Assembly (NCBI RefSeq): GCF_021134715.1
Contig: NC_060024.1
Coordinates: forward strand, 6,944,001-7,008,000
Source: Daphnia pulex
Lineage: Eukaryota > Arthropoda > Branchiopoda > Diplostraca > Daphniidae
Length of the DNA: 64,000 nucleotides
Direction of reading: 5' to 3'
This document shows positions 1 to 30,241 of the stretch, piece after piece. Below the pieces are notes generated by a model. It did not search any database, was not told the DNA's origin, and worked only from the letters and a program-made list of their open reading frames with translations. The first letter of the stretch is position 1, and every line of letters starts with the position of its first letter. A program made the position numbers and the translations under genes.

Positions 1-132
1 GGCAATATCCAGTAAAAAATACGTTCCTTCCATTTTCAACTAATGCCAAAATAATACATTGTAGTCCATGTAGTATCACCCATCTTGGGAAGCACTTCAA
101 TTCAATTGGATTCACAAAAATAAAATAATTCC

Positions 133-252
133 ATGCCAACAGCATCCCGTATTCCCAAGCGGTCACCCATCCAAGTACTAACGGGACCCGACATAGCTTA
201 ACTTCCGGGAGCTGACGAGACCGGGTGAGTTCTATGTGGTATGGCCGTTGAC
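133..252 (-). rRNA. 5S rRNA, copy A, unit 1
   Basis: Exactly 120 nt. The minus strand reads GTCAACGGCCATACCACA at the 5' end and ends GGATGCTGTTGGCAT, as in metazoan 5S rRNA. The internal control region (AGCTATGTCGGG, then GGATGGGTGACCGC) is intact. T-rich sequence follows the 3' end, as expected for Pol III termination. Confidence 0.97.
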
Positions 253-1697
253 ATTAAACTAGACGCAATTACCCGACCATATTCGCCTCTAATCTATTAC
301 TTGTGCTTGAGATTTATCTTTTTGAAATACACACTAATCTTACCAAAACCACCGAAAAACTATCAGTTTGTCATTTTACAAATGTTGTCAGTATGTAGTA
401 GTAGAATATCTTTGTTTCCGCATACAGACGTTTTTAATTTTTCATTTATTCAAAGTGCCCAATCAGAAGACCGGGCGTTAAAAAAATAAGTCATATAGAC
501 TCATCAATGCTCCTAACCACGGAAATCTTTAGTAAAAGGCGAAAGATTTATCCGGGTATTGATTAGAAACCAGAGTAAATAACAGTGGTATGCCTTGTAT
601 TTATATTCATTTCAAAATTTTGAAGTGCGCTTGTAAGGTTTTTTTTCGAAACATGCGTTTACATATCAAAATCCTTGTGCAATTCTTTATCAATGGGTAC
701 AGTTATTTTAAAGTAAATATCATGTATAAAGCTCGTTAACATGTTTTTGAACGAAACAGTTGTGCGCAGTGTTATTTTTGAAAAAAATGAACGATCTTTA
801 TGGTACAAGCCCAACACGTAGGTGGTGGGATCAGATGTTTACCCCGACATTCACCCTACAGCGGTTAACAATTTATTGAACTTCCCCTTTAAACATGGTG
901 GAATCTTTTCACCTTGTCATTTGGAATCACCTTTTCAAATATTTTCCCCGTGTTCACAATGTTCCAACTGACTGATATTAATGGCCTTCAGCGAACGAAT
1001 TAATCAGCCTTGTCTGACGTGCAATACCAACTAAATGGAAACAAAAATCACTTATACGATTTCACTTTCACCGTTTAATGTTATAAACACACTATGCAAC
1101 ACTCCAATTTTTCTAACTGACTGTAATTTTTTTTTCTTGTACGCTGAAATGCTCCTGATGGAGCTATCAAAAATTGCCGACGACAAAGATTATTTCACTT
1201 CATCGTGGCGGGGTATTGGTTAAAGTTTTCAACTAGCAATAATCACACCTCGGGAGACCCTCATTGGTTATGATATTGCCACTGCGCAAAGCTAAATTAT
1301 AATCAGAAAAGCAAGTCTACTTAAGCATTTGCTGAATTCGTTCTGCTTGGACGTGTTGGACCAACAATTTCGTTCAGAAATATTCATTTAGATTACCCTA
1401 GGCAAATTTTAATTTCCATCTCCCATTGGACTAATACCAACAGGGGACAGTTCATTACATACATGAAATAATTTTTGTCTTAATATCGGGTCAAATACTT
1501 GAAATTCTGTAAATGTGTATTTTTCTTCCATACATTTCAACAACTTCCTGCACACACAAAAAAAGGGAGGGGGAATTTCAGGTTTTCATTCCAAATTGTT
1601 TTTCACATTATGAACTATTGAAGTGAGCGAGCATTACTTTCCAACCAAACAAAATTTATAGTTAATCTGCGTGTTGACGTGAAAAATCAGTTTTCAG
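253..1697. other. Unit spacer between 5S A and tRNA-His (repeats each period)
   Basis: About 1.4 kb of AT-rich spacer, repeated at 9124-10568, 17995-19439 and 26866-28310. The first 100 bases resemble the upstream flank of 5S copy B. Short open frames here have no recognisable protein, start next to RNA genes and show no coding bias, so I do not call genes. I recognise no further RNA gene in it. Confidence 0.6.
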
Positions 1698-1787
1698 TGC
1701 CGTGACCAGGATTCGAACCTGGGTTACTACGGATTCATATCTAGTAGGTACCACAACGTAGGGTCCTAACCACTAGACGATCACGGC
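1698..1787 (-). tRNA. tRNA-His (GTG) with an 18-nt intron-like insert, unit 1
   Basis: The minus strand gives acceptor stem GCCGTGA/TCACGGC with discriminator A, a D arm (TCTAGTGGTTAGGA), anticodon stem CTACG/CGTAG and a T arm with GGTTCGAATCC. Anticodon GTG lies at 1752-1754. Without the insert the tRNA is 72 nt, as usual for tRNA-His. The insert (1733-1750) sits one base 3' of the anticodon, the standard place for a nuclear tRNA intron. The isotype is odd, because animal tRNA introns are known mainly in Tyr, Leu(CAA), Ile(UAU) and Arg(UCU). Stems are undamaged, so decay is not evident, but a non-functional copy remains possible. Confidence 0.85.
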
Positions 1788-1880
1788 CAATCCATTGGCC
1801 ATGATGATTTATATTAAAGTAGCTAAACATGAATTTCATTACTTTGTTGTTTCTTCCCAGAAAGAAAATCTGATGCTTCG

Positions 1881-1954
1881 CGTATTCCCAAGCGGTCAAC
1901 CCTACCGTTTACTAACGGGACCAGATTTAGTTCAACTTCCGGCAGATGACAAGA
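1881..1954 (-). pseudogene. 5S rRNA relic, unit 1
   Basis: The plus strand CGTATTCCCAAGCGGTCA, ACTAACGGGACC and TTCAACTTCCGG follow the order of a 5S gene read backwards, but with many changes and no recognisable 5' third. The internal promoter is altered. It lies just downstream of U1, suggesting U1 entered the cluster beside, or by recombination at, a former 5S gene. Confidence 0.85.
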
Positions 1955-1979
1955 ATTTTTCTTACATTTATAGTGTGTT

Positions 1980-2143
1980 CAGGGAACGGCGCGAACGCAG
2001 TCCCCCACTACCAAAAATTGTACTCCCGAGTTAATCACATTTGGATTAATCGCAAGGGTCAGCCCATCCTTAGTGCAATGGAAAGGCCTCGCCCTGGAGG
2101 AACCACCTTGGTGATCATGGTTGCCTCTGAGCCAGGTAAGTAT
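1980..2143 (-). ncRNA. U1 snRNA, unit 1
   Basis: 164 nt, the usual U1 length. The 5' end ATACTTACCTGG is the 5'-splice-site recognition sequence. Stem-loop I carries GATCACCAAGG and stem-loop II carries ATTGCAC (the U1A-binding loop). An Sm site AATTTTTGG is followed by a 3' stem ending CGTTCCCTG. The product pairs with intron 5' ends in the spliceosome. It is transcribed towards the tRNA. I could not define a PSE-type promoter with confidence. Confidence 0.96.
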
Positions 2144-2655
2144 GATTGTGGATGCTTTTTCACTTTGTTTAATACTTTGTATACAGCAGAACAATATTGA
2201 CAAAGAGTGTTCAAGTATTTGACTGACGTTTAGAGAATACCACCCACTTTCTTTCATCGACTTGAATTACGAACTCGAGCAAAATATAGTAAATAAAGCT
2301 CAGTATTTATTTCATGGTCTTGATCTTTGCAAATACTTTTCAAGAAACAAATTGCTTGTTTTTTTTCATTTGGTCGTCCAATTGGCAAATAAGAAAATAA
2401 GAAAATCGACTTTTCATATGAAAATACACGCATCTTCATATTTAAAAAAAAAACATCACATCGAAAGATGAACAGTACTAATTAGTTAACACAATCAAGT
2501 ACGTATTTTTTTATGCTTTTCTTGATATTACGAAAAAAATACAATTAGAAAAAATTACAAACATGTCTACATGACAGTTTTGCAATTATACATGGTCTTT
2601 TATTATACGGTGCTAAGACAATTTCTGTTTTATTCAATATGTTCTCCCTCATAGA
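2144..2655. other. Spacer between U1 and the U2 3' end (repeats each period)
   Basis: It contains the upstream region of the minus-strand U1 gene and the 3' flank of U2. AT-rich with homopolymer runs; no protein or further RNA gene seen. Repeated at 11015-11526, 19886-20397 and 28757-29268. Confidence 0.6.
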
Positions 2656-2805
2656 GGGTGAGCCGATCCCGGAGGTACTGCAATACCGGGTCAACCCGTG
2701 GCGGGAGCAGTGCAAGCACTGTATTCCCACCGTATGCCAAAAATCAGTTTAATATTCTGGGGTCCATTTGAACCCGTATCAGATATTAAGCTGATAAGAA
2801 CAGAT
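2656..2805 (-). pseudogene. U2 snRNA 3' part (150 nt), split by Utopia-like element, unit 1
   Basis: Matches the last 150 nt of the intact U2 (29269-29418) exactly in position and sequence. It includes the Sm site and 3' stem-loops. At 2805/2806 U2 sequence stops and the 3' end of the retrotransposon begins. Confidence 0.96.
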
Positions 2806-2923
2806 TTTATGCATTGTATTTTCCAAAGGACTGGGAATAAACATATATACAATGATTTATTTTAGTTGATTTTGAAGGGAAAAAGTTCGCGAGACGACGT
2901 GTCAACGCTACGTTAAAAAACCC

Positions 2924-5900
2924 TTAGTTTGAGGAAGAGGGAGGACTTGCGCCCTCTTCTGCTTCTTCTTCTTCGGGTTCGGGATCGCTTGCTTCGGTCT
3001 GGTATGCCAGATGTTTGGCTATGATTTGAGTTGTTCCTTGGATGGCCAGTAGTTTCATCTTCTTCTTGAGGCTCTGCCATTTTCTACCCGAGAATCCCAG
3101 GGCAAGACATATCTCATCGTTGCTTGGGAGCCAGGACCCTAGTGAACCAACCACGAGAGGGAGTACCACACCAAGATGTTTGTACTTTTCAATTTTCCTT
3201 GCCTGTGCCTTCTCGAGTCCATCCGCGCTGCTGAGGGGAACCGTGACGTCGATGATGATGGGAGGGTTGGTGGAAGTGACCACCAGGTCTGGTCTGAGTC
3301 CGGAGTTGTCCACGGCGAGGTTGACGGAGACGGTGTGGCCAAGTTTCTCCGTTTCTTCCGCCATCAGTCCTAAGATAGAATTATGACGATTAATAGAAAG
3401 AGCGGAGTTTACCTGGCACCCACAGACAACATGGTCTGTGGTTTCCAGCTTCGTACAACCTAGTCGACAGGTTTTGACTGTCGACTTTGATCCTGGGCCA
3501 CCTCGGACTGGCAGTATCCCTAGTCTCGCCTTGTGGAGAAAGTGCCATTCCTGGAAGGACAGTGGCGTTCGGCATGATAAGAGACCTGCGTTCTCCTTGG
3601 CCATGTCAAGAGCTAATCCGGTTGCCGTCTTTCCTTGTTGAGCTGACAGGAGTCTGCTTGTCCACCTTTGCCTCATCGCGGTCCGGAGTCCTCTGACTGC
3701 CTTGATGGAGATTGTGGAGATGTCATCGGCGATAACTTTGCTGTACTCTTCGCCGGATACATCAATCCTTATCCTCTTCAAACAGCCCGAGGCCTTCCTT
3801 GCGCGGGTCCAAAGGTTCATCGATGCTCCTCCATGTCTGATTGCTCCAAGTCCCTTTTCCATGGAACCTGCCAAGTACTCGTTAATAGGAAGTGGAAAGG
3901 GGACCTCGTTCCTGCCGTATCCCAATTTGATGGTTTCTTCTAGTTGTGCCATTGCCACTTCACTGACGTTCTTGTCTTTGCTATCTAGGAGTTGCAGTGC
4001 TCTTGCCAGGGTCCAAATGTCAGCCTCGTCTGTGAGGGGGAGAGCTCCAAGTCCTCCCACGCGGCGATCTGAGTAGAAAAAAGCAGTGTTAGCGGACATA
4101 GGGACACAGGCTACCTTGCGAAGGAAATCTCTGCAGGCGACGTCCAGGTCGTAGAGGGATCTTTTCTCGACTCTTCCCGATGCAAGGTGGTGGGAAAGTG
4201 ATGGGAGTAGTACACTTCTGTACACTTCCAGCTTTTGCCAGGGAGCCAAACCGGAGTCGCCAATCTTTATCAAATTTCCGAGAAGTGACGTGGTGGGTCG
4301 GAAGGTTAGTCGTGAGCCTAGTGGAGTCCCTAGATAGTTTTCCTGTTCGTCCTCGGCTAGGGCCCTTATTTGGGAGTCTCCGAGTTTCAGTGGGTTATCT
4401 ACAGAAGATTTGCCATTAATGAGTGTGAGTGACGTGCATTTGTTAGGATTAAATCTCAAGCCGAGTGAGGTTGCCGTGTTCTCGGTGGCATTGAGAGTTC
4501 CCTGGATTTCGCTGACTGAAGATCCTGCGATGGCAATGTCGTCTGCATAGGACGAAGTGGACACTCTTGACTGGTAGACTGCGAACCCGTTGTTGTTTGA
4601 TTTTACTGTCCTGATGATCGGTTCTGCCGCCAGATTGAAGACGACGCTGCTTAATGGATCTCCTTGTCGGACTCCGGCTGTTGGATGGATTTGAACTGAG
4701 TCTTGTCCGACGGCAAAGTCCATGATGTTGTTTGAGTAGATATCGGTCAGAATGCGGCGAAGTTCGTCAGGTATCGGGAGGCTTTCGAACAGGCTGTTCA
4801 GTATCGGATGAGGTATTGATCCGAATGCGTTGGTGAGATCGAGCCAAGCAATCACCAGCTTCCTTTTTGACTGTTTCGCCTGCTCGATCACCGTGTGGAG
4901 TATGTGGGTGTGCTCTTGGATACCCCTGACTCCTGGAAGGAATCCCTTTTGTTCTGGAGAAATCCATCCTAGTCTCGTGGCGGTGGCCATTATCCTGGAC
5001 GATATTATACCCGAAAATATCTTGTACATGGTTGGTAGTAAGGATATTGGCCTGAAGTTTCCATAATCAGAGGGATCTCCTTTCTTGAAGATAGGGACGG
5101 TTCGAGATGTTTTCCAGCAGGCTGGGATACCCAGAGACCACACCGCCCGGTAAATGGTTGCTAGGAGCTCGCCATTACCGTCAAGAGACCGGAGGTGGCG
5201 ATATTCAAGGCCATCCCTTCCTGGAGCAGTGTTAGCAGCTTTACCGAGTTTAAGCTTGATTTCGCTAAGACTGGGGGGAGCTGAGAGTAGCCTGATGTCG
5301 TCATCGGTCGTCTGCTTCCAATCGCAGTGGTCGAATTGAGCACGGGCTGACTCCACTTGCTCCTGAGAAGGAGCTGGCTGACAGTAGGTTTCTTTCAAAA
5401 ATGCAGTCGCTGTTTCTTTTGTTCCAGAGTATCCAGTTGATTCTTCTTCGAGAATTTTCCTGACAGCCCTGCGGGGATACAAAGAAAATAGACGTTGAAT
5501 TTTGCTCTTTTGGTCGTTTTGGGTTTGTTTGGATCTTCTGATTCTTTGTTGCTGGCGGTTTTGGCTTCGCTTTCGGTGGGCGTCTGGTGGCTTCTTTGGA
5601 GGGGGCGGTCGTTTCTGAGAAGGGGTCGAGTCTTCCGGTGTGGCAGAAAGTTTTAGCCACTCAGCACTGCACTTAGTGAGGGTGGAGTCGAGGCACTGTA
5701 CCGTGTTGCAAGCCTCTATCCTAGCGCCCCAAACACTCCTAAACGCCTCTAGTGGACACACCGCGTCTCCGGGAGCTACCAATCTACCAAGCTGGCTGGG
5801 AGATGAGGCTGGAGATTCATAAGAGGAATCATTGTTGTTGGAAGATTTTGATGAAGACGGAGAATTGAAAGAGGAAATTGATGAGTCAAGAGATTCACTG

Positions 5901-6718
5901 TTTTCTGAGATTATGTTTGGAGTAGAAGGACTCGAGCGTTGAGTGGACAAGTCTTTGGAGGTGTTTGATGCAGAAGAAAAAGAAGAAGATGAAACTGGAG
6001 AAGCTGGAGAGGAAGAGGAGGGGACGGGTGAGGTCCCCTCTCCTTCTGTGTTGTTCGGAGTATTGCGTCTCGAAGCAACAGTGGCGGTGTGACAAGAGGT
6101 GGTTGACAGTTCAAGATTGATAATTCTGAAAAACTCTCTGTTGGAAATGTTAGGAGGGAGGGGGAGGAGGGGAACAGTTGGAGAATACGGTTTTGGCGTC
6201 TCTGTTAGATGTGTTTTGTAATGCGTTTTAATGAAGTATCCATCTCCATTTGCCTCGCATTTCCTACATTGCCATCTGCGGACTGTAGTGAGACCATGTA
6301 CTCTAAACAGATGATGTTCAATGGACTGGAAAGCGACTGTTCCCTCACCCTTTGTGTGCCACTTGCATAAGGGGCATCGGCATGGGCCACCTGGATACAT
6401 GAGCGTGACTTCATTACCCATAATTGTGGTTCCTTCCACAGTGATGCTCTCATCAAGTGCACCACAACCTTTCTCATGCCTTCTAGCAATGACAACATCG
6501 CTGGTCTCGTGATCGCACGAATTGCATGTGTACATGGGAGCAACTCTCGCGTCATGTTTAGCGAACATGTGCCTGACCGAATCTTGGACTCGTGATCTTG
6601 ACGAGTATTTTCCGATTTTACAGAGAGAGCACTTAATCGTATCGGGCACAGGCCAAGGTAAGTAAATAGTTCCATCACAAGCTTGGAACTCGAAGAAGTC
6701 CACAGCTGCCCCTGCCAT
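2924..6718 (-). CDS. Utopia-like ORF: zinc-finger / reverse transcriptase / restriction-like endonuclease protein, unit 1
   Basis: The open frame runs to 6736 (1,270 codons), but codon 1 there is TTG. The first ATG is codon 7 (6718), giving 1,264 residues, and no in-frame stop precedes it inside the element. In 1,270-residue numbering: four C2H2-type fingers at about 36-62, 70-91, 119-147 and 157-176 (likely U2 DNA binding); a Ser-rich linker 205-315; a basic patch 374-415. RT follows: APGRDG 504-509, FRPISLL 561-567, motif A WLDLTNAF with Asp 633, motif B RQGDPLSS 690-697, YADD 730-733. A CCHC motif (C1090, C1094, H1102, C1107) comes before the endonuclease (RPD 1148-1150, IIDV 1161-1164, then KIEKY). 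The protein nicks U2 DNA and primes reverse transcription on it. All key residues are present. Confidence 0.95.
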   Translation of the reverse strand: MAGAAVDFFEFQACDGTIYLPWPVPDTIKCSLCKIGKYSSRSRVQDSVRHMFAKHDARVAPMYTCNSCDHETSDVVIARRHEKGCGALDESITVEGTTIMGNEVTLMYPGGPCRCPLCKWHTKGEGTVAFQSIEHHLFRVHGLTTVRRWQCRKCEANGDGYFIKTHYKTHLTETPKPYSPTVPLLPLPPNISNREFFRIINLELSTTSCHTATVASRRNTPNNTEGEGTSPVPSSSSPASPVSSSSFSSASNTSKDLSTQRSSPSTPNIISENSESLDSSISSFNSPSSSKSSNNNDSSYESPASSPSQLGRLVAPGDAVCPLEAFRSVWGARIEACNTVQCLDSTLTKCSAEWLKLSATPEDSTPSQKRPPPPKKPPDAHRKRSQNRQQQRIRRSKQTQNDQKSKIQRLFSLYPRRAVRKILEEESTGYSGTKETATAFLKETYCQPAPSQEQVESARAQFDHCDWKQTTDDDIRLLSAPPSLSEIKLKLGKAANTAPGRDGLEYRHLRSLDGNGELLATIYRAVWSLGIPACWKTSRTVPIFKKGDPSDYGNFRPISLLPTMYKIFSGIISSRIMATATRLGWISPEQKGFLPGVRGIQEHTHILHTVIEQAKQSKRKLVIAWLDLTNAFGSIPHPILNSLFESLPIPDELRRILTDIYSNNIMDFAVGQDSVQIHPTAGVRQGDPLSSVVFNLAAEPIIRTVKSNNNGFAVYQSRVSTSSYADDIAIAGSSVSEIQGTLNATENTATSLGLRFNPNKCTSLTLINGKSSVDNPLKLGDSQIRALAEDEQENYLGTPLGSRLTFRPTTSLLGNLIKIGDSGLAPWQKLEVYRSVLLPSLSHHLASGRVEKRSLYDLDVACRDFLRKVACVPMSANTAFFYSDRRVGGLGALPLTDEADIWTLARALQLLDSKDKNVSEVAMAQLEETIKLGYGRNEVPFPLPINEYLAGSMEKGLGAIRHGGASMNLWTRARKASGCLKRIRIDVSGEEYSKVIADDISTISIKAVRGLRTAMRQRWTSRLLSAQQGKTATGLALDMAKENAGLLSCRTPLSFQEWHFLHKARLGILPVRGGPGSKSTVKTCRLGCTKLETTDHVVCGCQVNSALSINRHNSILGLMAEETEKLGHTVSVNLAVDNSGLRPDLVVTSTNPPIIIDVTVPLSSADGLEKAQARKIEKYKHLGVVLPLVVGSLGSWLPSNDEICLALGFSGRKWQSLKKKMKLLAIQGTTQIIAKHLAYQTEASDPEPEEEEAEEGASPPSSSN

Positions 6719-6736
6719 TCCAGAAAGGGAGAACAA

Positions 6737-6810
6737 ATCCAGACGGTCAGACGTCTGGATCGGCTCAAGGTTGGGATGAGGGTGAGAGTCAACCCCCGCA
6801 TTTGCTTGAC
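6737..6810 (-). other. 5' leader of the Utopia-like element with hairpin
   Basis: Just before the ORF the minus strand has CCAGACG, a 6-nt loop, then CGTCTGG (6727-6746 in plus coordinates), a perfect 7-bp stem. The leader is open in the ORF frame all the way into the U2 30-nt fragment. I looked for a hepatitis-delta-like ribozyme fold as in R2 elements and could not convince myself of one. Confidence 0.6.
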
Positions 6811-6840
6811 TTGATCTTAGCCAAAAGGCCGAGAAGCGAT
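6811..6840 (-). pseudogene. U2 snRNA 5' part (30 nt), unit 1
   Basis: Minus strand reads from ATCGCTTCTCGG to GATCAA, the first 30 nt of U2. The next 8 nt of intact U2 (AGTGTAGT) are missing and replaced by the element. The native U2 promoter region lies just upstream, so the element could ride on U2 transcription. Confidence 0.95.
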
Positions 6841-7869
6841 AATGTTACAAGGATTACTGCCCAAAATAACCACTGAGGTTCAACACATTTCCGGTGGTGT
6901 ACGAAGAATACTCATATCACTCAAAACATTCAAGAAATGCTATAAAATATTGAGTTGTTCATTTTTCCAGACGCGACCACTTGATGCTTATAAAGTTCAT
7001 TTTCATTTGTTTTATTATGCTCATACTGTATTAAGGGAGATACAATTTACGCTGAAGGCGTTGCAAATTTTACTCTCGTTATCACACTAGGTCCTTTTTT
7101 TTCAGAATATGGCTTTGCCACGCCACCTGACGACAAAAGCTCTGAACGATAATTAATCATGATTAAATAACAATAACTAAAAGAATGCAATACGATCATA
7201 AAGTCATGACACATCCTCAAATTGACCAACCTCACTTTCACAATTTATTTTGCCATACAAGCAGATGATTTAAGGACACGAATACCTGGAATTATTATTA
7301 AGATTTATCTCTTTAGATTTTCAAGAATTTAAATTTGTTTTATCATCTCAACCACTCTGAACACGCTAGTTTCCTTCCGCTATTTCACATGGATTTAACG
7401 GAAACGGTCCTCAATGACTGTGTTTGATGCTGTCGAGACAGCTACACTCACAGCCTGTTTCACGCTCAGAAACCAGCGTCTTAACTCGTCATCGTGGGTT
7501 GAAAGGAGACAAGTTTCTGGTGGGAAACAAGTCAAGATATACTACAGAAATGATCCTGTGAAGTATGATCTTAAATGCAATGTTATTTTGCAGAACTCTA
7601 AATAAGGTTTGTACGATCAATGAGCTTTGGCGTAAATTACAGTGCATAGATCGATATTTCGGAATATTAAATTGAGATTTGCAATACTTGACGCACACAG
7701 TACATACATTGTCAGGTCTTGCATTTTGTTCATTTATTGAAACACCGAGAAGCTCTTTAATAGTTATAGAACAAGTGACGAGACCAATTTTGGACACAAT
7801 AAAGAATCCGCGTGCTCATCAAATCAATTTATTACAGTAATGTATTATCGATTGAGAGCCCATTTATCA
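6841..7869. other. Spacer between U2 5' end and 7SL (repeats each period)
   Basis: Holds the divergent upstream regions of U2 (minus) and 7SL (plus). Short frames are present but none is recognisable. Copies at 15712-16740 and 24583-25611; the copy after the intact U2 stops at 30202. Confidence 0.6.
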
Positions 7870-8167
7870 GCTGGGTGTTTGGCGTGCACCTATAATCCTG
7901 CTTCGGGGAGGCTTGGTAGAGTGGATGGCTTGAGTTTAGGAGCCCTGTTTCGTGATACCGCATGTTGATCAGGTGCCCGCACTAAGCTTGACATCAGCAT
8001 GGATCTGCTAGAGGAATCTAGTAGGTGCAGGTTAGCTAAGGAGGAGCGTAGTGGGTCAGGAGGGAAACCTAGCAGCCAAAAGTTCCCGTGTTCGGCAGTA
8101 GTGGGATCGTGCCAGTGAGTGGGCGTCATGCAACAGCCTCAACAAAATAGCCAAACCTCTATCTTTT
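7870..8167 (+). ncRNA. 7SL (SRP) RNA, unit 1
   Basis: About 298 nt, close to the usual 300. The 5' domain GCTGGGTGTTTGGCGTGC matches the Alu-domain start of animal 7SL. The S domain shows CAGGTGCCCGCACTAAGCTT, TTAGCTAAGGAGGAGCG (helix 6), GGGAAACCTAGCAGCC (SRP54-binding helix 8) and AGTAGTGGGATCGTGCC (helix 5 return strand). A run of nine T at 8164-8172 is the Pol III terminator. It is the scaffold of the signal recognition particle that targets secretory proteins to the ER, and the only gene of the unit on the plus strand. Confidence 0.95.
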
Positions 8168-8325
8168 TTTTTGTCGTTAAAACTACCGAGATCAAACAAA
8201 CATGCGTTCTACAATATATGGTATCATTAATCAAAGTCCCAGCAATACCCTTTTCAACTAATACCTAAAGAATACATTATATTCCATGTCTCATCTAACT
8301 TGGGGAGCAAAAATAAAATTACACC

Positions 8326-8445
8326 ATGCCAACAGCATCCCGTATTCCCAAGCGGTCACCCATCCAAGTACTAACGGGACCCGACATAGCTTAACTTCCG
8401 GGAGCTGACGAGACCGGGTGAGTTCTATGTGGTATGGCCGTTGAC
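8326..8445 (-). rRNA. 5S rRNA, copy B, unit 1
   Basis: Same 120-nt coding sequence as copy A but with diverged flanks. The upstream flank starts ATCAATTCAGTCGCCATTAC, where copy A has ATTAAACTAGACGCAATTAC. The two flanks are still alignable, so A and B come from an older local duplication (about 680 bp apart) whose coding parts stayed identical. Confidence 0.96.
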
Positions 8446-9003: not shown

Positions 9004-9123
9004 ATGCCAACAGCATCCCGTATTCCCAAGCGGTCACCCATCCAAGTACTAACGGGACCCGACATAGCTTAACTTCCGGGAGCTGACGAGACCGGGTGAG
9101 TTCTATGTGGTATGGCCGTTGAC
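9004..9123 (-). rRNA. 5S rRNA, copy A, unit 2
   Basis: Identical in the 120 nt to the copy at 133-252, offset by exactly one period, with the same flanks. Confidence 0.97.
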
Positions 9124-10825: not shown

Positions 10826-10850
10826 ATTTTTCTTACATTTATAGTGTGTT

Positions 10851-19696: not shown

Positions 19697-19721
19697 ATTT
19701 TTCTTACATTTATAGTGTGTT

Positions 19722-20397: not shown

Positions 20398-20547
20398 GGG
20401 TGAGCCGATCCCGGAGGTACTGCAATACCGGGTCAACCCGTGGCGGGAGCAGTGCAAGCACTGTATTCCCACCGTATGCCAAAAATCAGTTTAATATTCT
20501 GGGGTCCATTTGAACCCGTATCAGATATTAAGCTGATAAGAACAGAT
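20398..20547 (-). pseudogene. U2 snRNA 3' part, unit 3
   Basis: Same 150-nt fragment and same junction as unit 1. Confidence 0.96.
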
Positions 20548-23500
20548 TTTATGCATTGTATTTTCCAAAGGACTGGGAATAAACATATATACAATGATTT
20601 ATTTTAGTTGATTTTGAAGGGAAAAAGTTCGCGAGACGACGTGTCAACGCTACGTTAAAAAACCCTTAGTTTGAGGAAGAGGGAGGACTTGCGCCCTCTT
20701 CTGCTTCTTCTTCTTCGGGTTCGGGATCGCTTGCTTCGGTCTGGTATGCCAGATGTTTGGCTATGATTTGAGTTGTTCCTTGGATGGCCAGTAGTTTCAT
20801 CTTCTTCTTGAGGCTCTGCCATTTTCTACCCGAGAATCCCAGGGCAAGACATATCTCATCGTTGCTTGGGAGCCAGGACCCTAGTGAACCAACCACGAGA
20901 GGGAGTACCACACCAAGATGTTTGTACTTTTCAATTTTCCTTGCCTGTGCCTTCTCGAGTCCATCCGCGCTGCTGAGGGGAACCGTGACGTCGATGATGA
21001 TGGGAGGGTTGGTGGAAGTGACCACCAGGTCTGGTCTGAGTCCGGAGTTGTCCACGGCGAGGTTGACGGAGACGGTGTGGCCAAGTTTCTCCGTTTCTTC
21101 CGCCATCAGTCCTAAGATAGAATTATGACGATTAATAGAAAGAGCGGAGTTTACCTGGCACCCACAGACAACATGGTCTGTGGTTTCCAGCTTCGTACAA
21201 CCTAGTCGACAGGTTTTGACTGTCGACTTTGATCCTGGGCCACCTCGGACTGGCAGTATCCCTAGTCTCGCCTTGTGGAGAAAGTGCCATTCCTGGAAGG
21301 ACAGTGGCGTTCGGCATGATAAGAGACCTGCGTTCTCCTTGGCCATGTCAAGAGCTAATCCGGTTGCCGTCTTTCCTTGTTGAGCTGACAGGAGTCTGCT
21401 TGTCCACCTTTGCCTCATCGCGGTCCGGAGTCCTCTGACTGCCTTGATGGAGATTGTGGAGATGTCATCGGCGATAACTTTGCTGTACTCTTCGCCGGAT
21501 ACATCAATCCTTATCCTCTTCAAACAGCCCGAGGCCTTCCTTGCGCGGGTCCAAAGGTTCATCGATGCTCCTCCATGTCTGATTGCTCCAAGTCCCTTTT
21601 CCATGGAACCTGCCAAGTACTCGTTAATAGGAAGTGGAAAGGGGACCTCGTTCCTGCCGTATCCCAATTTGATGGTTTCTTCTAGTTGTGCCATTGCCAC
21701 TTCACTGACGTTCTTGTCTTTGCTATCTAGGAGTTGCAGTGCTCTTGCCAGGGTCCAAATGTCAGCCTCGTCTGTGAGGGGGAGAGCTCCAAGTCCTCCC
21801 ACGCGGCGATCTGAGTAGAAAAAAGCAGTGTTAGCGGACATAGGGACACAGGCTACCTTGCGAAGGAAATCTCTGCAGGCGACGTCCAGGTCGTAGAGGG
21901 ATCTTTTCTCGACTCTTCCCGATGCAAGGTGGTGGGAAAGTGATGGGAGTAGTACACTTCTGTACACTTCCAGCTTTTGCCAGGGAGCCAAACCGGAGTC
22001 GCCAATCTTTATCAAATTTCCGAGAAGTGACGTGGTGGGTCGGAAGGTTAGTCGTGAGCCTAGTGGAGTCCCTAGATAGTTTTCCTGTTCGTCCTCGGCT
22101 AGGGCCCTTATTTGGGAGTCTCCGAGTTTCAGTGGGTTATCTACAGAAGATTTGCCATTAATGAGTGTGAGTGACGTGCATTTGTTAGGATTAAATCTCA
22201 AGCCGAGTGAGGTTGCCGTGTTCTCGGTGGCATTGAGAGTTCCCTGGATTTCGCTGACTGAAGATCCTGCGATGGCAATGTCGTCTGCATAGGACGAAGT
22301 GGACACTCTTGACTGGTAGACTGCGAACCCGTTGTTGTTTGATTTTACTGTCCTGATGATCGGTTCTGCCGCCAGATTGAAGACGACGCTGCTTAATGGA
22401 TCTCCTTGTCGGACTCCGGCTGTTGGATGGATTTGAACTGAGTCTTGTCCGACGGCAAAGTCCATGATGTTGTTTGAGTAGATATCGGTCAGAATGCGGC
22501 GAAGTTCGTCTGGTATCGGGAGGCTTTCGAACAGGCTGTTCAGTATCGGATGAGGTATTGATCCGAATGCGTTGGTGAGATCGAGCCAAGCAATCACCAG
22601 CTTCCTTTTTGACTGTTTCGCCTGCTCGATCACCGTGTGGAGTATGTGGGTGTGCTCTTGGATACCCCTGACTCCTGGAAGGAATCCCTTTTGTTCTGGA
22701 GAAATCCATCCTAGTCTCGTGGCGGTGGCCATTATCCTGGACGATATTATACCCGAAAATATCTTGTACATGGTTGGTAGTAAGGATATTGGCCTGAAGT
22801 TTCCATAATCAGAGGGATCTCCTTTCTTGAAGATAGGGACGGTTCGAGATGTTTTCCAGCAGGCTGGGATACCCAGAGACCACACCGCCCGGTAAATGGT
22901 TGCTAGGAGCTCGCCATTACCGTCAAGAGACCGGAGGTGGCGATATTCAAGGCCATCCCTTCCTGGAGCAGTGTTAGCAGCTTTACCGAGTTTAAGCTTG
23001 ATTTCGCTAAGACTGGGGGGAGCTGAGAGTAGCCTGATGTCGTCATCGGTCGTCTGCTTCCAATCGCAGTGGTCGAATTGAGCACGGGCTGACTCCACTT
23101 GCTCCTGAGAAGGAGCTGGCTGACAGTAGGTTTCTTTCAAAAATGCAGTCGCTGTTTCTTTTGTTCCAGAGTATCCAGTTGATTCTTCTTCGAGAATTTT
23201 CCTGACAGCCCTGCGGGGATACAAAGAAAATAGACGTTGAATTTTGCTCTTTTGGTCGTTTTGGGTTTGTTTGGATCTTCTGATTCTTTGTTGCTGGCGG
23301 TTTTGGCTTCGCTTTCGGTGGGCGTCTGGTGGCTTCTTTGGAGGGGGCGGTCGTTTCTGAGAAGGGGTCGAGTCTTCCGGTGTGGCAGAAAGTTTTAGCC
23401 ACTCAGCACTGCACTTAGTGAGGGTGGAGTCGAGGCACTGTACCGTGTTGCAAGCCTCTATCCTAGCGCCCCAAACACTCCTAAACGCCTCTAGTGGACA

Positions 23501-24552
23501 CACCGCGTCTCCGGGAGCTACCAATCTACCAAGCTGGCTGGGAGATGAGGCTGGAGATTCATAAGAGGAATCATTGTTGTTGGAAGATTTTGATGAAGAC
23601 GGAGAATTGAAAGAGGAAATTGATGAGTCAAGAGATTCACTGTTTTCTGAGATTATGTTTGGAGTAGAAGGACTCGAGCGTTGAGTGGACAAGTCTTTGG
23701 AGGTGTTTGATGCAGAAGAAAAAGAAGAAGATGAAACTGGAGAAGCTGGAGAGGAAGAGGAGGGGACGGGTGAGGTCCCCTCTCCTTCTGTGTTGTTCGG
23801 AGTATTGCGTCTCGAAGCAACAGTGGCGGTGTGACAAGAGGTGGTTGACAGTTCAAGATTGATAATTCTGAAAAACTCTCTGTTGGAAATGTTAGGAGGG
23901 AGGGGGAGGAGGGGAACAGTTGGAGAATACGGTTTTGGCGTCTCTGTTAGATGTGTTTTGTAATGCGTTTTAATGAAGTATCCATCTCCATTTGCCTCGC
24001 ATTTCCTACATTGCCATCTGCGGACTGTAGTGAGACCATGTACTCTAAACAGATGATGTTCAATGGACTGGAAAGCGACTGTTCCCTCACCCTTTGTGTG
24101 CCACTTGCATAAGGGGCATCGGCATGGGCCACCTGGATACATGAGCGTGACTTCATTACCCATAATTGTGGTTCCTTCCACAGTGATGCTCTCATCAAGT
24201 GCACCACAACCTTTCTCATGCCTTCTAGCAATGACAACATCGCTGGTCTCGTGATCGCACGAATTGCATGTGTACATGGGAGCAACTCTCGCGTCATGTT
24301 TAGCGAACATGTGCCTGACCGAATCTTGGACTCGTGATCTTGACGAGTATTTTCCGATTTTACAGAGAGAGCACTTAATCGTATCGGGCACAGGCCAAGG
24401 TAAGTAAATAGTTCCATCACAAGCTTGGAACTCGAAGAAGTCCACAGCTGCCCCTGCCATTCCAGAAAGGGAGAACAAATCCAGACGGTCAGACGTCTGG
24501 ATCGGCTCAAGGTTGGGATGAGGGTGAGAGTCAACCCCCGCATTTGCTTGAC
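20548..24552 (-). mobile_element. Utopia-like retrotransposon, unit 3
   Basis: Same junctions. One difference seen: plus-strand T at 22511 instead of A (a CCT-to-CCA proline codon, silent). Confidence 0.93.
20666..24460 (-). CDS. Utopia-like ORF, unit 3
   Basis: Same protein as units 1 and 2. Its only visible nucleotide change (22511) is silent, in the Pro codon of the IPDEL segment after RT motif A. Confidence 0.95.
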   Translation of the reverse strand: MAGAAVDFFEFQACDGTIYLPWPVPDTIKCSLCKIGKYSSRSRVQDSVRHMFAKHDARVAPMYTCNSCDHETSDVVIARRHEKGCGALDESITVEGTTIMGNEVTLMYPGGPCRCPLCKWHTKGEGTVAFQSIEHHLFRVHGLTTVRRWQCRKCEANGDGYFIKTHYKTHLTETPKPYSPTVPLLPLPPNISNREFFRIINLELSTTSCHTATVASRRNTPNNTEGEGTSPVPSSSSPASPVSSSSFSSASNTSKDLSTQRSSPSTPNIISENSESLDSSISSFNSPSSSKSSNNNDSSYESPASSPSQLGRLVAPGDAVCPLEAFRSVWGARIEACNTVQCLDSTLTKCSAEWLKLSATPEDSTPSQKRPPPPKKPPDAHRKRSQNRQQQRIRRSKQTQNDQKSKIQRLFSLYPRRAVRKILEEESTGYSGTKETATAFLKETYCQPAPSQEQVESARAQFDHCDWKQTTDDDIRLLSAPPSLSEIKLKLGKAANTAPGRDGLEYRHLRSLDGNGELLATIYRAVWSLGIPACWKTSRTVPIFKKGDPSDYGNFRPISLLPTMYKIFSGIISSRIMATATRLGWISPEQKGFLPGVRGIQEHTHILHTVIEQAKQSKRKLVIAWLDLTNAFGSIPHPILNSLFESLPIPDELRRILTDIYSNNIMDFAVGQDSVQIHPTAGVRQGDPLSSVVFNLAAEPIIRTVKSNNNGFAVYQSRVSTSSYADDIAIAGSSVSEIQGTLNATENTATSLGLRFNPNKCTSLTLINGKSSVDNPLKLGDSQIRALAEDEQENYLGTPLGSRLTFRPTTSLLGNLIKIGDSGLAPWQKLEVYRSVLLPSLSHHLASGRVEKRSLYDLDVACRDFLRKVACVPMSANTAFFYSDRRVGGLGALPLTDEADIWTLARALQLLDSKDKNVSEVAMAQLEETIKLGYGRNEVPFPLPINEYLAGSMEKGLGAIRHGGASMNLWTRARKASGCLKRIRIDVSGEEYSKVIADDISTISIKAVRGLRTAMRQRWTSRLLSAQQGKTATGLALDMAKENAGLLSCRTPLSFQEWHFLHKARLGILPVRGGPGSKSTVKTCRLGCTKLETTDHVVCGCQVNSALSINRHNSILGLMAEETEKLGHTVSVNLAVDNSGLRPDLVVTSTNPPIIIDVTVPLSSADGLEKAQARKIEKYKHLGVVLPLVVGSLGSWLPSNDEICLALGFSGRKWQSLKKKMKLLAIQGTTQIIAKHLAYQTEASDPEPEEEEAEEGASPPSSSN

Positions 24553-24582
24553 TTGATCTTAGCCAAAAGGCCGAGAAGCGAT
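24553..24582 (-). pseudogene. U2 snRNA 5' part, unit 3
   Basis: Same 30-nt fragment and same 5' junction as unit 1. Confidence 0.95.
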
Positions 24583-25611
24583 AATGTTACAAGGATTACT
24601 GCCCAAAATAACCACTGAGGTTCAACACATTTCCGGTGGTGTACGAAGAATACTCATATCACTCAAAACATTCAAGAAATGCTATAAAATATTGAGTTGT
24701 TCATTTTTCCAGACGCGACCACTTGATGCTTATAAAGTTCATTTTCATTTGTTTTATTATGCTCATACTGTATTAAGGGAGATACAATTTACGCTGAAGG
24801 CGTTGCAAATTTTACTCTCGTTATCACACTAGGTCCTTTTTTTTCAGAATATGGCTTTGCCACGCCACCTGACGACAAAAGCTCTGAACGATAATTAATC
24901 ATGATTAAATAACAATAACTAAAAGAATGCAATACGATCATAAAGTCATGACACATCCTCAAATTGACCAACCTCACTTTCACAATTTATTTTGCCATAC
25001 AAGCAGATGATTTAAGGACACGAATACCTGGAATTATTATTAAGATTTATCTCTTTAGATTTTCAAGAATTTAAATTTGTTTTATCATCTCAACCACTCT
25101 GAACACGCTAGTTTCCTTCCGCTATTTCACATGGATTTAACGGAAACGGTCCTCAATGACTGTGTTTGATGCTGTCGAGACAGCTACACTCACAGCCTGT
25201 TTCACGCTCAGAAACCAGCGTCTTAACTCGTCATCGTGGGTTGAAAGGAGACAAGTTTCTGGTGGGAAACAAGTCAAGATATACTACAGAAATGATCCTG
25301 TGAAGTATGATCTTAAATGCAATGTTATTTTGCAGAACTCTAAATAAGGTTTGTACGATCAATGAGCTTTGGCGTAAATTACAGTGCATAGATCGATATT
25401 TCGGAATATTAAATTGAGATTTGCAATACTTGACGCACACAGTACATACATTGTCAGGTCTTGCATTTTGTTCATTTATTGAAACACCGAGAAGCTCTTT
25501 AATAGTTATAGAACAAGTGACGAGACCAATTTTGGACACAATAAAGAATCCGCGTGCTCATCAAATCAATTTATTACAGTAATGTATTATCGATTGAGAG
25601 CCCATTTATCA

Positions 25612-25909
25612 GCTGGGTGTTTGGCGTGCACCTATAATCCTGCTTCGGGGAGGCTTGGTAGAGTGGATGGCTTGAGTTTAGGAGCCCTGTTTCGTGATAC
25701 CGCATGTTGATCAGGTGCCCGCACTAAGCTTGACATCAGCATGGATCTGCTAGAGGAATCTAGTAGGTGCAGGTTAGCTAAGGAGGAGCGTAGTGGGTCA
25801 GGAGGGAAACCTAGCAGCCAAAAGTTCCCGTGTTCGGCAGTAGTGGGATCGTGCCAGTGAGTGGGCGTCATGCAACAGCCTCAACAAAATAGCCAAACCT
25901 CTATCTTTT
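25612..25909 (+). ncRNA. 7SL (SRP) RNA, unit 3
   Basis: Identical copy. Unit 4 has no 7SL because the array is cut at 30202. Confidence 0.95.
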
Positions 25910-26067
25910 TTTTTGTCGTTAAAACTACCGAGATCAAACAAACATGCGTTCTACAATATATGGTATCATTAATCAAAGTCCCAGCAATACCCTTTTCAAC
26001 TAATACCTAAAGAATACATTATATTCCATGTCTCATCTAACTTGGGGAGCAAAAATAAAATTACACC

Positions 26068-26187
26068 ATGCCAACAGCATCCCGTATTCCCAAGCGGTCA
26101 CCCATCCAAGTACTAACGGGACCCGACATAGCTTAACTTCCGGGAGCTGACGAGACCGGGTGAGTTCTATGTGGTATGGCCGTTGAC
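26068..26187 (-). rRNA. 5S rRNA, copy B, unit 3
   Basis: Intact 120-nt copy B with the standard base at the position that varies in unit 2. Confidence 0.96.
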
Positions 26188-26745
26188 ATCAATTCAGTCG
26201 CCATTACCCGACCATATTCGCCTCTAAATCTAGTTCTAATGCTTGCTTACTTTCTGTTCGAAATACACACCAACCTTAGCCAAACAAACGAGGACATATA
26301 AGTACATTTGTCAATGGACAACCGAATATAAAATTTGATAATATTTCCAAACGCCACTATTTTTGGCTAACTGTCATTTTTAATTTTCTCGTTCCGGGGA
26401 TGTCCGATCAATGAGCCAACAATCCAAGTGTCATAAGGCTAACGATTGCTTCCCTTACTTAGCTTGCGTTGCATAAGGATCTCAGAGTCAGAGAGATTAG
26501 ATAGAGCTGCCCGAAGAAACCACCAACGTACAAGCCTCTCGGCTGTGCCGTGCGCTTCGCGCACGGCGTTTCAAATATCTTTCAGCAACAAAGAGGTTGG
26601 AGGACGTCTAGTAGGCAATATCCAGTAAAAAATACGTTCCTTCCATTTTCAACTAATGCCAAAATAATACATTGTAGTCCATGTAGTATCACCCATCTTG
26701 GGAAGCACTTCAATTCAATTGGATTCACAAAAATAAAATAATTCC

Positions 26746-26865
26746 ATGCCAACAGCATCCCGTATTCCCAAGCGGTCACCCATCCAAGTACTAACGGGAC
26801 CCGACATAGCTTAACTTCCGGGAGCTGACGAGACCGGGTGAGTTCTATGTGGTATGGCCGTTGAC
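26746..26865 (-). rRNA. 5S rRNA, copy A, unit 4
   Basis: Intact 120-nt 5S. It is the last complete 5S of the array; to its right only fragments remain (30202-30241 and 31026-31060). Confidence 0.97.
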
Positions 26866-28310
26866 ATTAAACTAGACGCAATTACCCGACCATATTCGCC
26901 TCTAATCTATTACTTGTGCTTGAGATTTATCTTTTTGAAATACACACTAATCTTACCAAAACCACCGAAAAACTATCAGTTTGTCATTTTACAAATGTTG
27001 TCAGTATGTAGTAGTAGAATATCTTTGTTTCCGCATACAGACGTTTTTAATTTTTCATTTATTCAAAGTGCCCAATCAGAAGACCGGGCGTTAAAAAAAT
27101 AAGTCATATAGACTCATCAATGCTCCTAACCACGGAAATCTTTAGTAAAAGGCGAAAGATTTATCCGGGTATTGATTAGAAACCAGAGTAAATAACAGTG
27201 GTATGCCTTGTATTTATATTCATTTCAAAATTTTGAAGTGCGCTTGTAAGGTTTTTTTTCGAAACATGCGTTTACATATCAAAATCCTTGTGCAATTCTT
27301 TATCAATGGGTACAGTTATTTTAAAGTAAATATCATGTATAAAGCTCGTTAACATGTTTTTGAACGAAACAGTTGTGCGCAGTGTTATTTTTGAAAAAAA
27401 TGAACGATCTTTATGGTACAAGCCCAACACGTAGGTGGTGGGATCAGATGTTTACCCCGACATTCACCCTACAGCGGTTAACAATTTATTGAACTTCCCC
27501 TTTAAACATGGTGGAATCTTTTCACCTTGTCATTTGGAATCACCTTTTCAAATATTTTCCCCGTGTTCACAATGTTCCAACTGACTGATATTAATGGCCT
27601 TCAGCGAACGAATTAATCAGCCTTGTCTGACGTGCAATACCAACTAAATGGAAACAAAAATCACTTATACGATTTCACTTTCACCGTTTAATGTTATAAA
27701 CACACTATGCAACACTCCAATTTTTCTAACTGACTGTAATTTTTTTTTCTTGTACGCTGAAATGCTCCTGATGGAGCTATCAAAAATTGCCGACGACAAA
27801 GATTATTTCACTTCATCGTGGCGGGGTATTGGTTAAAGTTTTCAACTAGCAATAATCACACCTCGGGAGACCCTCATTGGTTATGATATTGCCACTGCGC
27901 AAAGCTAAATTATAATCAGAAAAGCAAGTCTACTTAAGCATTTGCTGAATTCGTTCTGCTTGGACGTGTTGGACCAACAATTTCGTTCAGAAATATTCAT
28001 TTAGATTACCCTAGGCAAATTTTAATTTCCATCTCCCATTGGACTAATACCAACAGGGGACAGTTCATTACATACATGAAATAATTTTTGTCTTAATATC
28101 GGGTCAAATACTTGAAATTCTGTAAATGTGTATTTTTCTTCCATACATTTCAACAACTTCCTGCACACACAAAAAAAGGGAGGGGGAATTTCAGGTTTTC
28201 ATTCCAAATTGTTTTTCACATTATGAACTATTGAAGTGAGCGAGCATTACTTTCCAACCAAACAAAATTTATAGTTAATCTGCGTGTTGACGTGAAAAAT
28301 CAGTTTTCAG

Positions 28311-28400
28311 TGCCGTGACCAGGATTCGAACCTGGGTTACTACGGATTCATATCTAGTAGGTACCACAACGTAGGGTCCTAACCACTAGACGATCACGGC
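28311..28400 (-). tRNA. tRNA-His (GTG) with insert, unit 4
   Basis: Identical copy in the truncated last unit; insert at 28346-28363. Confidence 0.85.
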
Positions 28401-28493
28401 CAATCCATTGGCCATGATGATTTATATTAAAGTAGCTAAACATGAATTTCATTACTTTGTTGTTTCTTCCCAGAAAGAAAATCTGATGCTTCG

Positions 28494-28567
28494 CGTATTC
28501 CCAAGCGGTCAACCCTACCGTTTACTAACGGGACCAGATTTAGTTCAACTTCCGGCAGATGACAAGA
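28494..28567 (-). pseudogene. 5S rRNA relic, unit 4
   Basis: Same decayed 5S copy in the truncated unit. Confidence 0.85.
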
Positions 28568-28592
28568 ATTTTTCTTACATTTATAGTGTGTT

Positions 28593-28756
28593 CAGGAAAC
28601 GGCGCGAACGCAGTCCCCCACTACCAAAAATTGTACTCCCGAGTTAATCACATTTGGATTAATCGCAAGGGTCAGCCCATCCTTAGTGCAATGGAAAGGC
28701 CTCGCCCTGGAGGAACCACCTTGGTGATCATGGTTGCCTCTGAGCCAGGTAAGTAT
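28593..28756 (-). ncRNA. U1 snRNA, unit 4 (one variant base)
   Basis: Differs from the others at 28597 (plus strand A, not G), turning CGTTCCCTG at the 3' end into CGTTTCCTG. The change is in the terminal stem, not in the splice-site or Sm regions, so function is probably kept. Confidence 0.95.
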
Positions 28757-29268
28757 GATTGTGGATGCTTTTTCACTTTGTTTAATACTTTGTATACAGC
28801 AGAACAATATTGACAAAGAGTGTTCAAGTATTTGACTGACGTTTAGAGAATACCACCCACTTTCTTTCATCGACTTGAATTACGAACTCGAGCAAAATAT
28901 AGTAAATAAAGCTCAGTATTTATTTCATGGTCTTGATCTTTGCAAATACTTTTCAAGAAACAAATTGCTTGTTTTTTTTCATTTGGTCGTCCAATTGGCA
29001 AATAAGAAAATAAGAAAATCGACTTTTCATATGAAAATACACGCATCTTCATATTTAAAAAAAAAACATCACATCGAAAGATGAACAGTACTAATTAGTT
29101 AACACAATCAAGTACGTATTTTTTTATGCTTTTCTTGATATTACGAAAAAAATACAATTAGAAAAAATTACAAACATGTCTACATGACAGTTTTGCAATT
29201 ATACATGGTCTTTTATTATACGGTGCTAAGACAATTTCTGTTTTATTCAATATGTTCTCCCTCATAGA

Positions 29269-29456
29269 GGGTGAGCCGATCCCGGAGGTACTGCAATACC
29301 GGGTCAACCCGTGGCGGGAGCAGTGCAAGCACTGTATTCCCACCGTATGCCAAAAATCAGTTTAATATTCTGGGGTCCATTTGAACCCGTATCAGATATT
29401 AAGCTGATAAGAACAGATACTACACTTTGATCTTAGCCAAAAGGCCGAGAAGCGAT
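29269..29456 (-). ncRNA. U2 snRNA, intact (unit 4)
   Basis: 188 nt, full length. The 5' end is ATCGCTTCTCGGCCTTTTGG. The branch-point recognition sequence GTAGTA lies in AAAGTGTAGTATCTG, and the Sm site TGATTTTTGG and 3' stem-loops III/IV are present, ending CGGCTCACCC. This is the only uninterrupted U2 gene in the window and shows the empty target site for the three interrupted copies. U2 pairs with the intron branch point in the spliceosome. Confidence 0.97.
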
Positions 29457-30201
29457 AATGTTACAAGGATTACTGCCCAAAATAACCACTGAGGTTCAAC
29501 ACATTTCCGGTGGTGTACGAAGAATACTCATATCACTCAAAACATTCAAGAAATGCTATAAAATATTGAGTTGTTCATTTTTCCAGACGCGACCACTTGA
29601 TGCTTATAAAGTTCATTTTCATTTGTTTTATTATGCTCATACTGTATTAAGGGAGATACAATTTACGCTGAAGGCGTTGCAAATTTTACTCTCGTTATCA
29701 CACTAGGTCCTTTTTTTTCAGAATATGGCTTTGCCACGCCACCTGACGACAAAAGCTCTGAACGATAATTAATCATGATTAAATAACAATAACTAAAAGA
29801 ATGCAATACGATCATAAAGTCATGACACATCCTCAAATTGACCAACCTCACTTTCACAATTTATTTTGCCATACAAGCAGATGATTTAAGGACACGAATA
29901 CCTGGAATTATTATTAAGATTTATCTCTTTAGATTTTCAAGAATTTAAATTTGTTTTATCATCTCAACCACTCTGAACACGCTAGTTTCCTTCCGCTATT
30001 TCACATGGATTTAACGGAAACGGTCCTCAATGACTGTGTTTGATGCTGTCGAGACAGCTACACTCACAGCCTGTTTCACGCTCAGAAACCAGCGTCTTAA
30101 CTCGTCATCGTGGGTTGAAAGGAGACAAGTTTCTGGTGGGAAACAAGTCAAGATATACTACAGAAATGATCCTGTGAAGTATGATCTTAAATGCAATGTT
30201 A

Positions 30202-30241
30202 TGAGGAGACCGGTTGAGTTCTATGTGGTATGACCGTTGAC
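30202..30241 (-). pseudogene. 5S rRNA 5' fragment at array edge
   Basis: About 40 nt matching the 5' third of 5S with several changes (minus strand GTCAACGGTCATACCACATA), joined directly to the truncated unit 4. The flank to its right matches first copy B and then copy A upstream sequence, so this is a recombinant 5S remnant. Confidence 0.85.

Follow-up and report, generated by a model that had tools for sequence, protein, structure and literature searches.

The DNA studied here is a 64-kb segment of the Daphnia pulex genome (C8:6944001-7008000; hereafter the window), whose first 30,202 bases are occupied by a tandem array of genes for stable RNAs with a period of 8,871 base pairs (bp). Genes were called with Rfam models at gathering threshold across the 64-kb window, and positions 1-9500 were additionally scanned with a permissive threshold (E<=5). 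For the search for related copies, 133,188,837 bases of the genome on 13 contigs (labelled C1, C2 and so on) were scanned. Thirty-four Rfam matches were obtained in the window, all of them within positions 1-30,202: seven to 5S ribosomal RNA (rRNA), three to 7SL RNA, and four each to the small nuclear RNAs (snRNAs) U1, U2, U4 and U5, the small nucleolar RNA (snoRNA) U3 and transfer RNA (tRNA), with three of the four U2 matches interrupted. A complete unit consists of nine genes of eight RNA classes, namely two genes for 5S and one each for U5, U4, tRNA-His, U1, U2, U3 and 7SL. It holds all major spliceosomal snRNAs except U6, of which the permissive Rfam scan (E<=5) found none in positions 1-9500. 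The order in unit 1, read along the plus strand, is 5S, U5, U4, tRNA-His, U1, 3' part of U2, a retrotransposon, 5' part of U2, U3, 7SL and 5S; 7SL lies on the plus strand and all other genes on the minus strand. The permissive scan additionally picked up the split U2 piece. Sub-threshold Rfam matches in positions 1-9500 (snoZ155, mir-483 and others) were judged to be due to chance, and a U1 pattern search of the window gave no match.

A preliminary description made from the sequence had listed five classes in the unit (5S, U1, U2, 7SL and tRNA-His). All five were recovered with Rfam or ARAGORN, but the list was incomplete: U3, U4 and U5 had been missed, and 5S occurs twice per complete unit. 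The same description was right in that one homogenised unit mixes genes of the RNA polymerase (Pol) II type (U1 and U2, to which U3, U4 and U5 are to be added) with genes of the Pol III type (5S, 7SL and tRNA-His).

Table 1. Features of the array and its right edge (positions in the window).
Feature	Position	Strand	Further copies	Basis
Tandem unit 1, 8,871 bp, retrotransposon inside	1-8871			Lag identity and unit comparison
Tandem unit 2	8872-17742			1 mismatch to unit 1
Tandem unit 3	17743-26613			2 mismatches to unit 2
Partial last unit (unit 4), retrotransposon-free (empty site)	26614-30202			Unit comparison
Decayed, rearranged array edge with fragments of 5S region	30202-31061			Sequence comparison
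5S rRNA gene	134-252	-	9005-9123, 17876-17994, 26747-26865	Rfam RF00001, 103.4 bits
U5 snRNA	456-578	-	9327-9449, 18198-18320, 27069-27191	Rfam RF00020, 82.9 bits
U4 snRNA	1152-1293	-	10023-10164, 18894-19035, 27765-27906	Rfam RF00015, 124.8 bits
tRNA-His(GTG), 18-nucleotide (nt) intron	1697-1787	-	10568-10658, 19439-19529, 28310-28400	ARAGORN, introns allowed; Rfam RF00005
Degenerate 5S remnant, about 80% identical, located between the tRNA-His and U1 genes	1875-1954	-		BLAST of unit against copies
U1 snRNA	1980-2143	-	10851-11014, 19722-19885, 28593-28756	Rfam RF00003, 146.7 bits (unit 4: 143.5)
Interrupted U2, 3' part (nt 39 to end)	2653-2805	-	Likewise in units 2 and 3	Junction reading
Utopia-like retrotransposon without long terminal repeats (non-LTR), in U2	2806-6810	-	Same place in units 2 and 3	Junctions; boundaries about +/- 1 base
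Open reading frame (ORF), 1270 amino acids (aa); reverse transcriptase and restriction-like endonuclease, N terminus by eye similar to zinc fingers	2924-6736	-
Interrupted U2, 5' part (nt 1-30; nt 31-38 absent)	6811-6840	-		Junction reading
U3 snoRNA	7351-7572	-	16222-16443, 25093-25314, 29967-30188	Rfam RF00012, 127.5 bits
7SL (signal recognition particle, SRP) RNA	7870-8166	+	16741-17037, 25612-25908	Rfam RF00017, 211.3 bits
Second 5S rRNA gene of pair	8327-8445	-	17198-17316, 26069-26187	Rfam RF00001
Intact U2 snRNA gene, the array's only one as assembled	29266-29456	-		Rfam RF00004, 177.2 bits (interrupted ones: 119.3)

At a lag of 8,871 bp, every 500-bp bin as far as position 20,500 had an identity of 1.000 or 0.998, against 0.22-0.32 beyond it; the period given in the preliminary description proved exact. 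Its right edge was likewise correct to the base, as close homology stops at 30,202. Units 1 and 2 differ by one mismatch and units 2 and 3 by two, over 8,871 bp each, and a single base distinguishes the first 2,805 bp of units 3 and 4. Spacers and genes are equally homogeneous among units (1-2 differences per 8,871 bp). The incomplete unit 4 is without 7SL and without one 5S gene, and its U3 retains just 14 bp of upstream array sequence.

Upstream of the window, a further partial unit of 5,026 bp with two mismatches to unit 1 starts inside the retrotransposon, directly at a run of 100 N (C8:6938874-6938973). As the array is cut by this assembly gap, the number of assembled units does not give its true size or copy number. 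Moreover, contig C8 starts (C8:1-220) inside a reverse-oriented copy of the array unit. Inverting the first part of C8 would join both array ends, and the scaffold order or orientation may be wrong. The gap and the start of C8 make the length and placement of the array untrustworthy, and they are the points in favour of regarding the units themselves as collapsed or mis-joined by the assembly. We consider such an artefact extremely improbable, mainly because the junctions partly recur in other copies on C8 that are about 2-16% diverged; in addition, the window contains no N, and the same junctions are present in three complete units which carry private differences.

The preliminary description had placed a U2 gene in the unit, and one is there, but it is not intact. 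In all three complete units it is split by an R2-like element of about 4 kb that makes up nearly half of the 8,871 bp. The insertion point lies exactly before U2 nucleotide 39, and U2 resumes with this nucleotide past the element. Since U2 is uninterrupted at the same place in the last unit, the underlying element-free unit comprises 4,874 bp, as read from unit 4. The element ORF contains a reverse transcriptase domain (Pfam PF00078, 3.8e-28), and R2-type proteins were among its best sequence matches in the PDB. Its C-terminal part aligns with the corresponding part of R2-type proteins (E 4.4e-11), and the alignment shows C..C..H..C and PD..D patterns, which we take to be the zinc finger and restriction-like endonuclease motifs, respectively. 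At the N terminus, Cys/His pairs were recognised by eye, and no zinc-finger match was obtained with Pfam. Given that a restriction-like endonuclease fits Utopia whereas an apurinic/apyrimidinic endonuclease would mean Keno, the inserted element is probably of the Utopia kind, as judged from its target site and from the presence of the reverse transcriptase and endonuclease domains.

According to passages of Kojima and Jurka (2015; PMC4640811), Utopia targets U2 with a 3' flank consisting of U2 from nt 39, arthropod families are without target-site duplication, and D. pulex is among the hosts, although the termini could not be determined there. The array element resembles Utopia as presented in these passages in its reverse transcriptase, its restriction-like endonuclease and the nt-39 flank. 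It differs in that both junctions are now visible in D. pulex, and that they lie within a compound array. In the array element U2 nt 31-38 are lost and the target is not duplicated. A copy at 4.39 Mb on C8 has a longer 5' end than the array element and a 33-bp duplication of U2 (two mismatches, by eye), which breaks the rule given for arthropods in that paper.

Further U2 genes on C8 were cut at the same nucleotide. Among nine U2 3' parts found there in the Rfam scan, eight are cut at nt 39 and one is intact; two of the cut copies have drifted (35/40 and 36/40 bases match). The element 3' end before the cut is of one kind in four of these copies (units 1-3, of which one was read and the other two are identical to it there, and the copy at C8:4.39 Mb) and of another kind in the remaining four (C8:11, 46, 52 and 66 kb). 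The U2 genes off C8, on C9 and C5, are both intact. The element ORF had 43 matches in the genome, none of which exceeded 51% identity off C8. A separate family of relatives of the element protein (about 49-50% identity, ORFs of 1077-1321 aa) was noted on C1, C2, C3, C4, C5, C7, C8, C9, C10 and C12. An ORF of 1031 aa at C8:7974-10604 is 32% identical to the window element and lies about 0.7 kb before the nt-39-cut U2 piece at C8:11325; it possibly represents a second U2-specific family. Viral contigs were searched with both the element protein and a 5S pattern, and no relatives were revealed.

Each of the eight RNA classes has at least one copy outside the array. The following counts from the whole-genome scan are lower bounds: (i) U1, at least eight matches, all on C8 (four in array units, two good off-array copies and two fragments); (ii) U2, at least 16 including fragments, with intact genes on C9, C5 and in the last unit of the array; (iii) 7SL, at least 14, of which ten were over the cut-off, including four on C10 that scored higher than the array copies; (iv) U3, at least eight, with two higher-scoring copies on C10 and one at the end of C8; (v) 5S, at least 17, all on C8 (eight in the array, nine outside); (vi) U4, at least five, all on C8 (four in the array, one outside); (vii) U5, at least six (four in the array, two on C5); (viii) tRNA-His, at least 11 (four in the array, seven dispersed). 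For U6 there were at least four matches, two of them over the cut-off, all on C2. Arrays of U6 in D. pulex are mentioned in a passage of the paper on the Dada transposon (PMC3706591), in agreement with a location of U6 elsewhere.

These copies bear on the idea, put forward in the preliminary description, that a single copy number jointly determines how much RNA of the spliceosome, the SRP and the ribosome is made. In its favour, the unit contains eight classes, and a large part of the matches of the assembly resides in the array (U4, 4/5; U5, 4/6; 5S, 8/17). We regard it as very unlikely, however, because all eight classes also have copies outside the array; besides, none of the three complete units has an unbroken U2, and U6 is located elsewhere. 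The proposed tie was therefore not upheld.

Decayed, reverse-oriented pieces of the array unit and of its elements are present within the first 90 kb or so of C8, and other copies on this contig keep parts of the linkage (U1-U2, U3-7SL-5S and 7SL-5S-5S). No tandem TTAGG telomere repeats were seen in the six loci examined. Elsewhere on C8 (positions 6360048-6363538; 48-3538 of locus L018), genes for tRNA-Ile, U1 and 5S share one strand of a 3.5-kb stretch; their order differs from that in the unit, and their spacers show no similarity to it.

The near-identity of the units may mask missing selection, and the array could then be an unexpressed, satellite-like collection of pseudogenes retained merely through recent amplification. 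Consistent with this possibility, U2 is broken in three units, decay is evident in the related pieces at C8:1-90 kb, and the array 7SL and U3 are well diverged (15-21%) from their paralogues, among them the copies on C10. The way in which 7SL and U3 have diverged argues against it. Compared with two of the four 7SL copies on C10 (L039 and L041), the array gene has 62 and 63 differences at 297 sites, and it keeps 89 of 99 and 88 of 98 predicted base pairs, respectively. None of 2000 random mutants carrying equal changes did as well in either comparison. By the same control, the array U3 keeps 67 of 77 and 69 of 76 predicted pairs, which was equalled by eight and four mutants. Pairs changed on both sides amounted to 12 of 99 in 7SL and eight of 72 in U3, numbers reached by 3/500 and 8/500 shuffles, and the cells changed on both pair sides were above all 500 shuffles for both RNAs; as the structures were derived from the same alignments, these covariation counts are biased toward them.

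Other observations likewise speak against an array of pseudogenes. The tRNA-His exons of the array are identical (by eye) to those of the two dispersed copies that were read out of seven (C3:12618617 and C3:12620493), whereas the introns are unrelated (18 nt in the array, 12 nt on C3). Contrasts between genes and spacers gave a mixed picture. In the array-related copy at 19.6 kb on C8, the 7SL gene has 4/297 changes and the spacer 21/281 (p = 3e-4); the corresponding values for U2 in the copy at 46 kb are 8/153 and 64/509 (p = 0.01). Furthermore, every class scored well above the Rfam cut-off, and the array holds four of the five U4 and eight of the 17 5S matches of the assembly. An initially strong contrast in the copy at the C8 end (p about 1e-6) was dropped, because a hybrid 5S flank (q8446-8544) accounts for most of its 25 spacer differences, leaving only five.

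Several results weigh against functional constraint. Without the hybrid flank, gene and spacer in the C8-end copy no longer differed significantly (1/621 vs 5/573, p = 0.11), nor did U1 in the copy at 46 kb (8/104, p = 0.18). Pair retention in the array copies of U1 and U2, which have 2-9 changes each, was no better than chance. The number of further standard pair types in 7SL and U3 was not above that of shuffles (498/500 and 346/500 were at least as high), and in Rfam the array 7SL and U3 scored lower than the C10 copies. On balance, an array of pseudogenes appears unlikely to us: the array genes look functional by their sequence, and we infer that they are transcribed.

The regions upstream of the genes were searched for common motifs. 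A 14-bp motif of 10.43 bits was found at -160 to -164 (about -162) of the five Pol II-type genes of the array (U1, U2, U3, U4 and U5). The maximum in 25 circular shifts was 9.02 bits, with four restarts for the controls and six for the observed set. Trained on the array, the motif had its best sense-strand match at -161 to -164 in five of six dispersed genes (both U1, one of two U2 and both U3), and its presence in array and dispersed genes alike does not fit with an array of pseudogenes. By comparison, 54 of 2000 random 260-bp stretches had their best match at -165 to -160 (binomial 8e-8). None of eight Pol III genes and, weakly, one of four U6 matches had their best match there. Some reservations apply. 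The motif was identified after the fact, and the test was not fully independent because array and dispersed genes are paralogous. The dispersed U2 on C9 is without the motif, the opposite strand scores higher elsewhere at one U1 (L001) and one U3 (L053), and a second site at the other U3 (L054) ties the score to one decimal. We know of no factor that binds the motif, which is possibly an upstream control element.

The proximal sequence element of snRNA genes is expected near -60. A signal at this distance reached 9.78 bits in the joint set, which includes related genes, as compared with at most 7.08 bits in 15 shuffles. It is less convincing in other respects: with positions chosen jointly it ranked first in four of five array genes but also in one of four Pol III controls (tRNA-His), and when learnt from the dispersed genes alone it was found in only two of the five array genes (U2 and U3). 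A free search for upstream motifs had been only weakly positive (10.2 bits, with 8.9-9.5 in six shuffles), and these position-restricted searches took its place. Downstream, the Pol III genes are followed by runs of T and the Pol II-type genes by A/T-rich stretches (by eye).

In our view, the locus is likely to be a compound tandem repeat of stable-RNA genes that is kept functional and through which a Utopia-type insertion has spread. A 5S-containing array would have gathered other RNA genes, each most likely equipped with a promoter and a terminator of its own; tandem duplication of a block of such self-contained genes keeps the genes working. In one unit, an element of the Utopia kind would then have inserted into U2 directly in front of nucleotide 39, presumably in a single event, and unequal exchange or conversion would have spread the enlarged 8,871-bp unit until the element occupied at least four units, namely units 1-3 and the partial unit that precedes the window. 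Unequal exchange probably homogenises genes and spacers alike, while selection would keep the RNA genes functional. The empty last unit stands at the edge of the array, where exchange should be rarest. The broken U2 genes may be tolerated because the last unit, C5 and C9 still provide intact ones. This suggests a way for a U2-specific parasite to persist, carried along inside a homogenising array while intact U2 genes survive elsewhere.

A more specific role can be put forward tentatively and is in our opinion doubtful. Since 7SL and U3 are 15-21% different yet structurally kept, and since the Pol II-type genes share the -162 motif, the array might encode a specialised set of stable RNAs alongside the dispersed one, for example for egg loading or a growth phase; it would co-evolve as a block and also be the refuge of at least two kinds of U2-specific retrotransposons, as distinguished by their 3' ends. 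Maternal-type sets of rRNA and snRNA exist in some vertebrates.

The element-free part of the unit was scanned for structured RNAs not yet annotated (236 windows), and the top signals fell on known genes. The spacer window 1481-1600 (plus strand), between U4 and tRNA-His, has an unusually stable predicted fold (z about -3.3). Within the decayed right edge lies a 210-bp element (30598-30807) resembling a miniature inverted-repeat transposable element; 25 of the 26 outer bases of its inverted ends match, and it is bordered by TA on both sides. Downstream of the array, ORFs with Kunitz (42614-43183), laminin G (37926-38387) and RING-finger (60709-61230) domains resemble ordinary animal genes.

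Linked repeats of RNA genes are already known, and the combination of genes is what is new here, as far as our searches reach. In line with the preliminary description, no unit with these eight classes was found in the searched full-text literature (titles, beginnings of abstracts and passages); most subscription journals lie outside its reach, and absence from it is no proof. Within that literature, the unit raises the record to eight stable-RNA classes per tandem unit. A database paper lists cytogenetic data as lacking for Daphnia magna in the passage available (PMC5818627). Among the closest cases is the fish Solea senegalensis, in which 5S is linked with U1, U2 and U5 (Manchado et al. 2006, as cited in PMC3464664 and PMC6204057); it likewise combines 5S with three snRNA classes and mixes Pol II and Pol III genes, but U3, U4, 7SL and tRNA-His are unmentioned in the citing passages. 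In Leishmania tarentolae, a 2.7-kb region contains U3, U1, 5S and ten tRNA genes (PMC2784804). As in the Daphnia unit, U3, U1, 5S and tRNAs share one short stretch; this, however, is a single region of a trypanosomatid, for which the passage describes no tandem array and leaves U2, U4, U5 and 7SL unmentioned.

Among crustaceans, passages in PMC3215682 and PMC6204057 report 5S-U1 and 5S-histone repeats in the isopod Asellus aquaticus, where 5S is also joined to another gene family, with U1 or histone genes named as its partners as opposed to the eight classes of the Daphnia unit. Linkage of 5S with snRNA in oysters is reported in the same sources. The snRNA pairs of Drosophila (U1-U2, U2-U5 and U4-U5) and the 5S-SL1 array of Caenorhabditis elegans (passages in PMC3464664 and PMC11822377) are further linked stable-RNA genes of invertebrates, but they join two classes at once. 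Set beside these systems, the Daphnia unit lends itself naturally to testing whether Pol II and Pol III RNA genes become linked by chance gathering at a 5S array or by selection.

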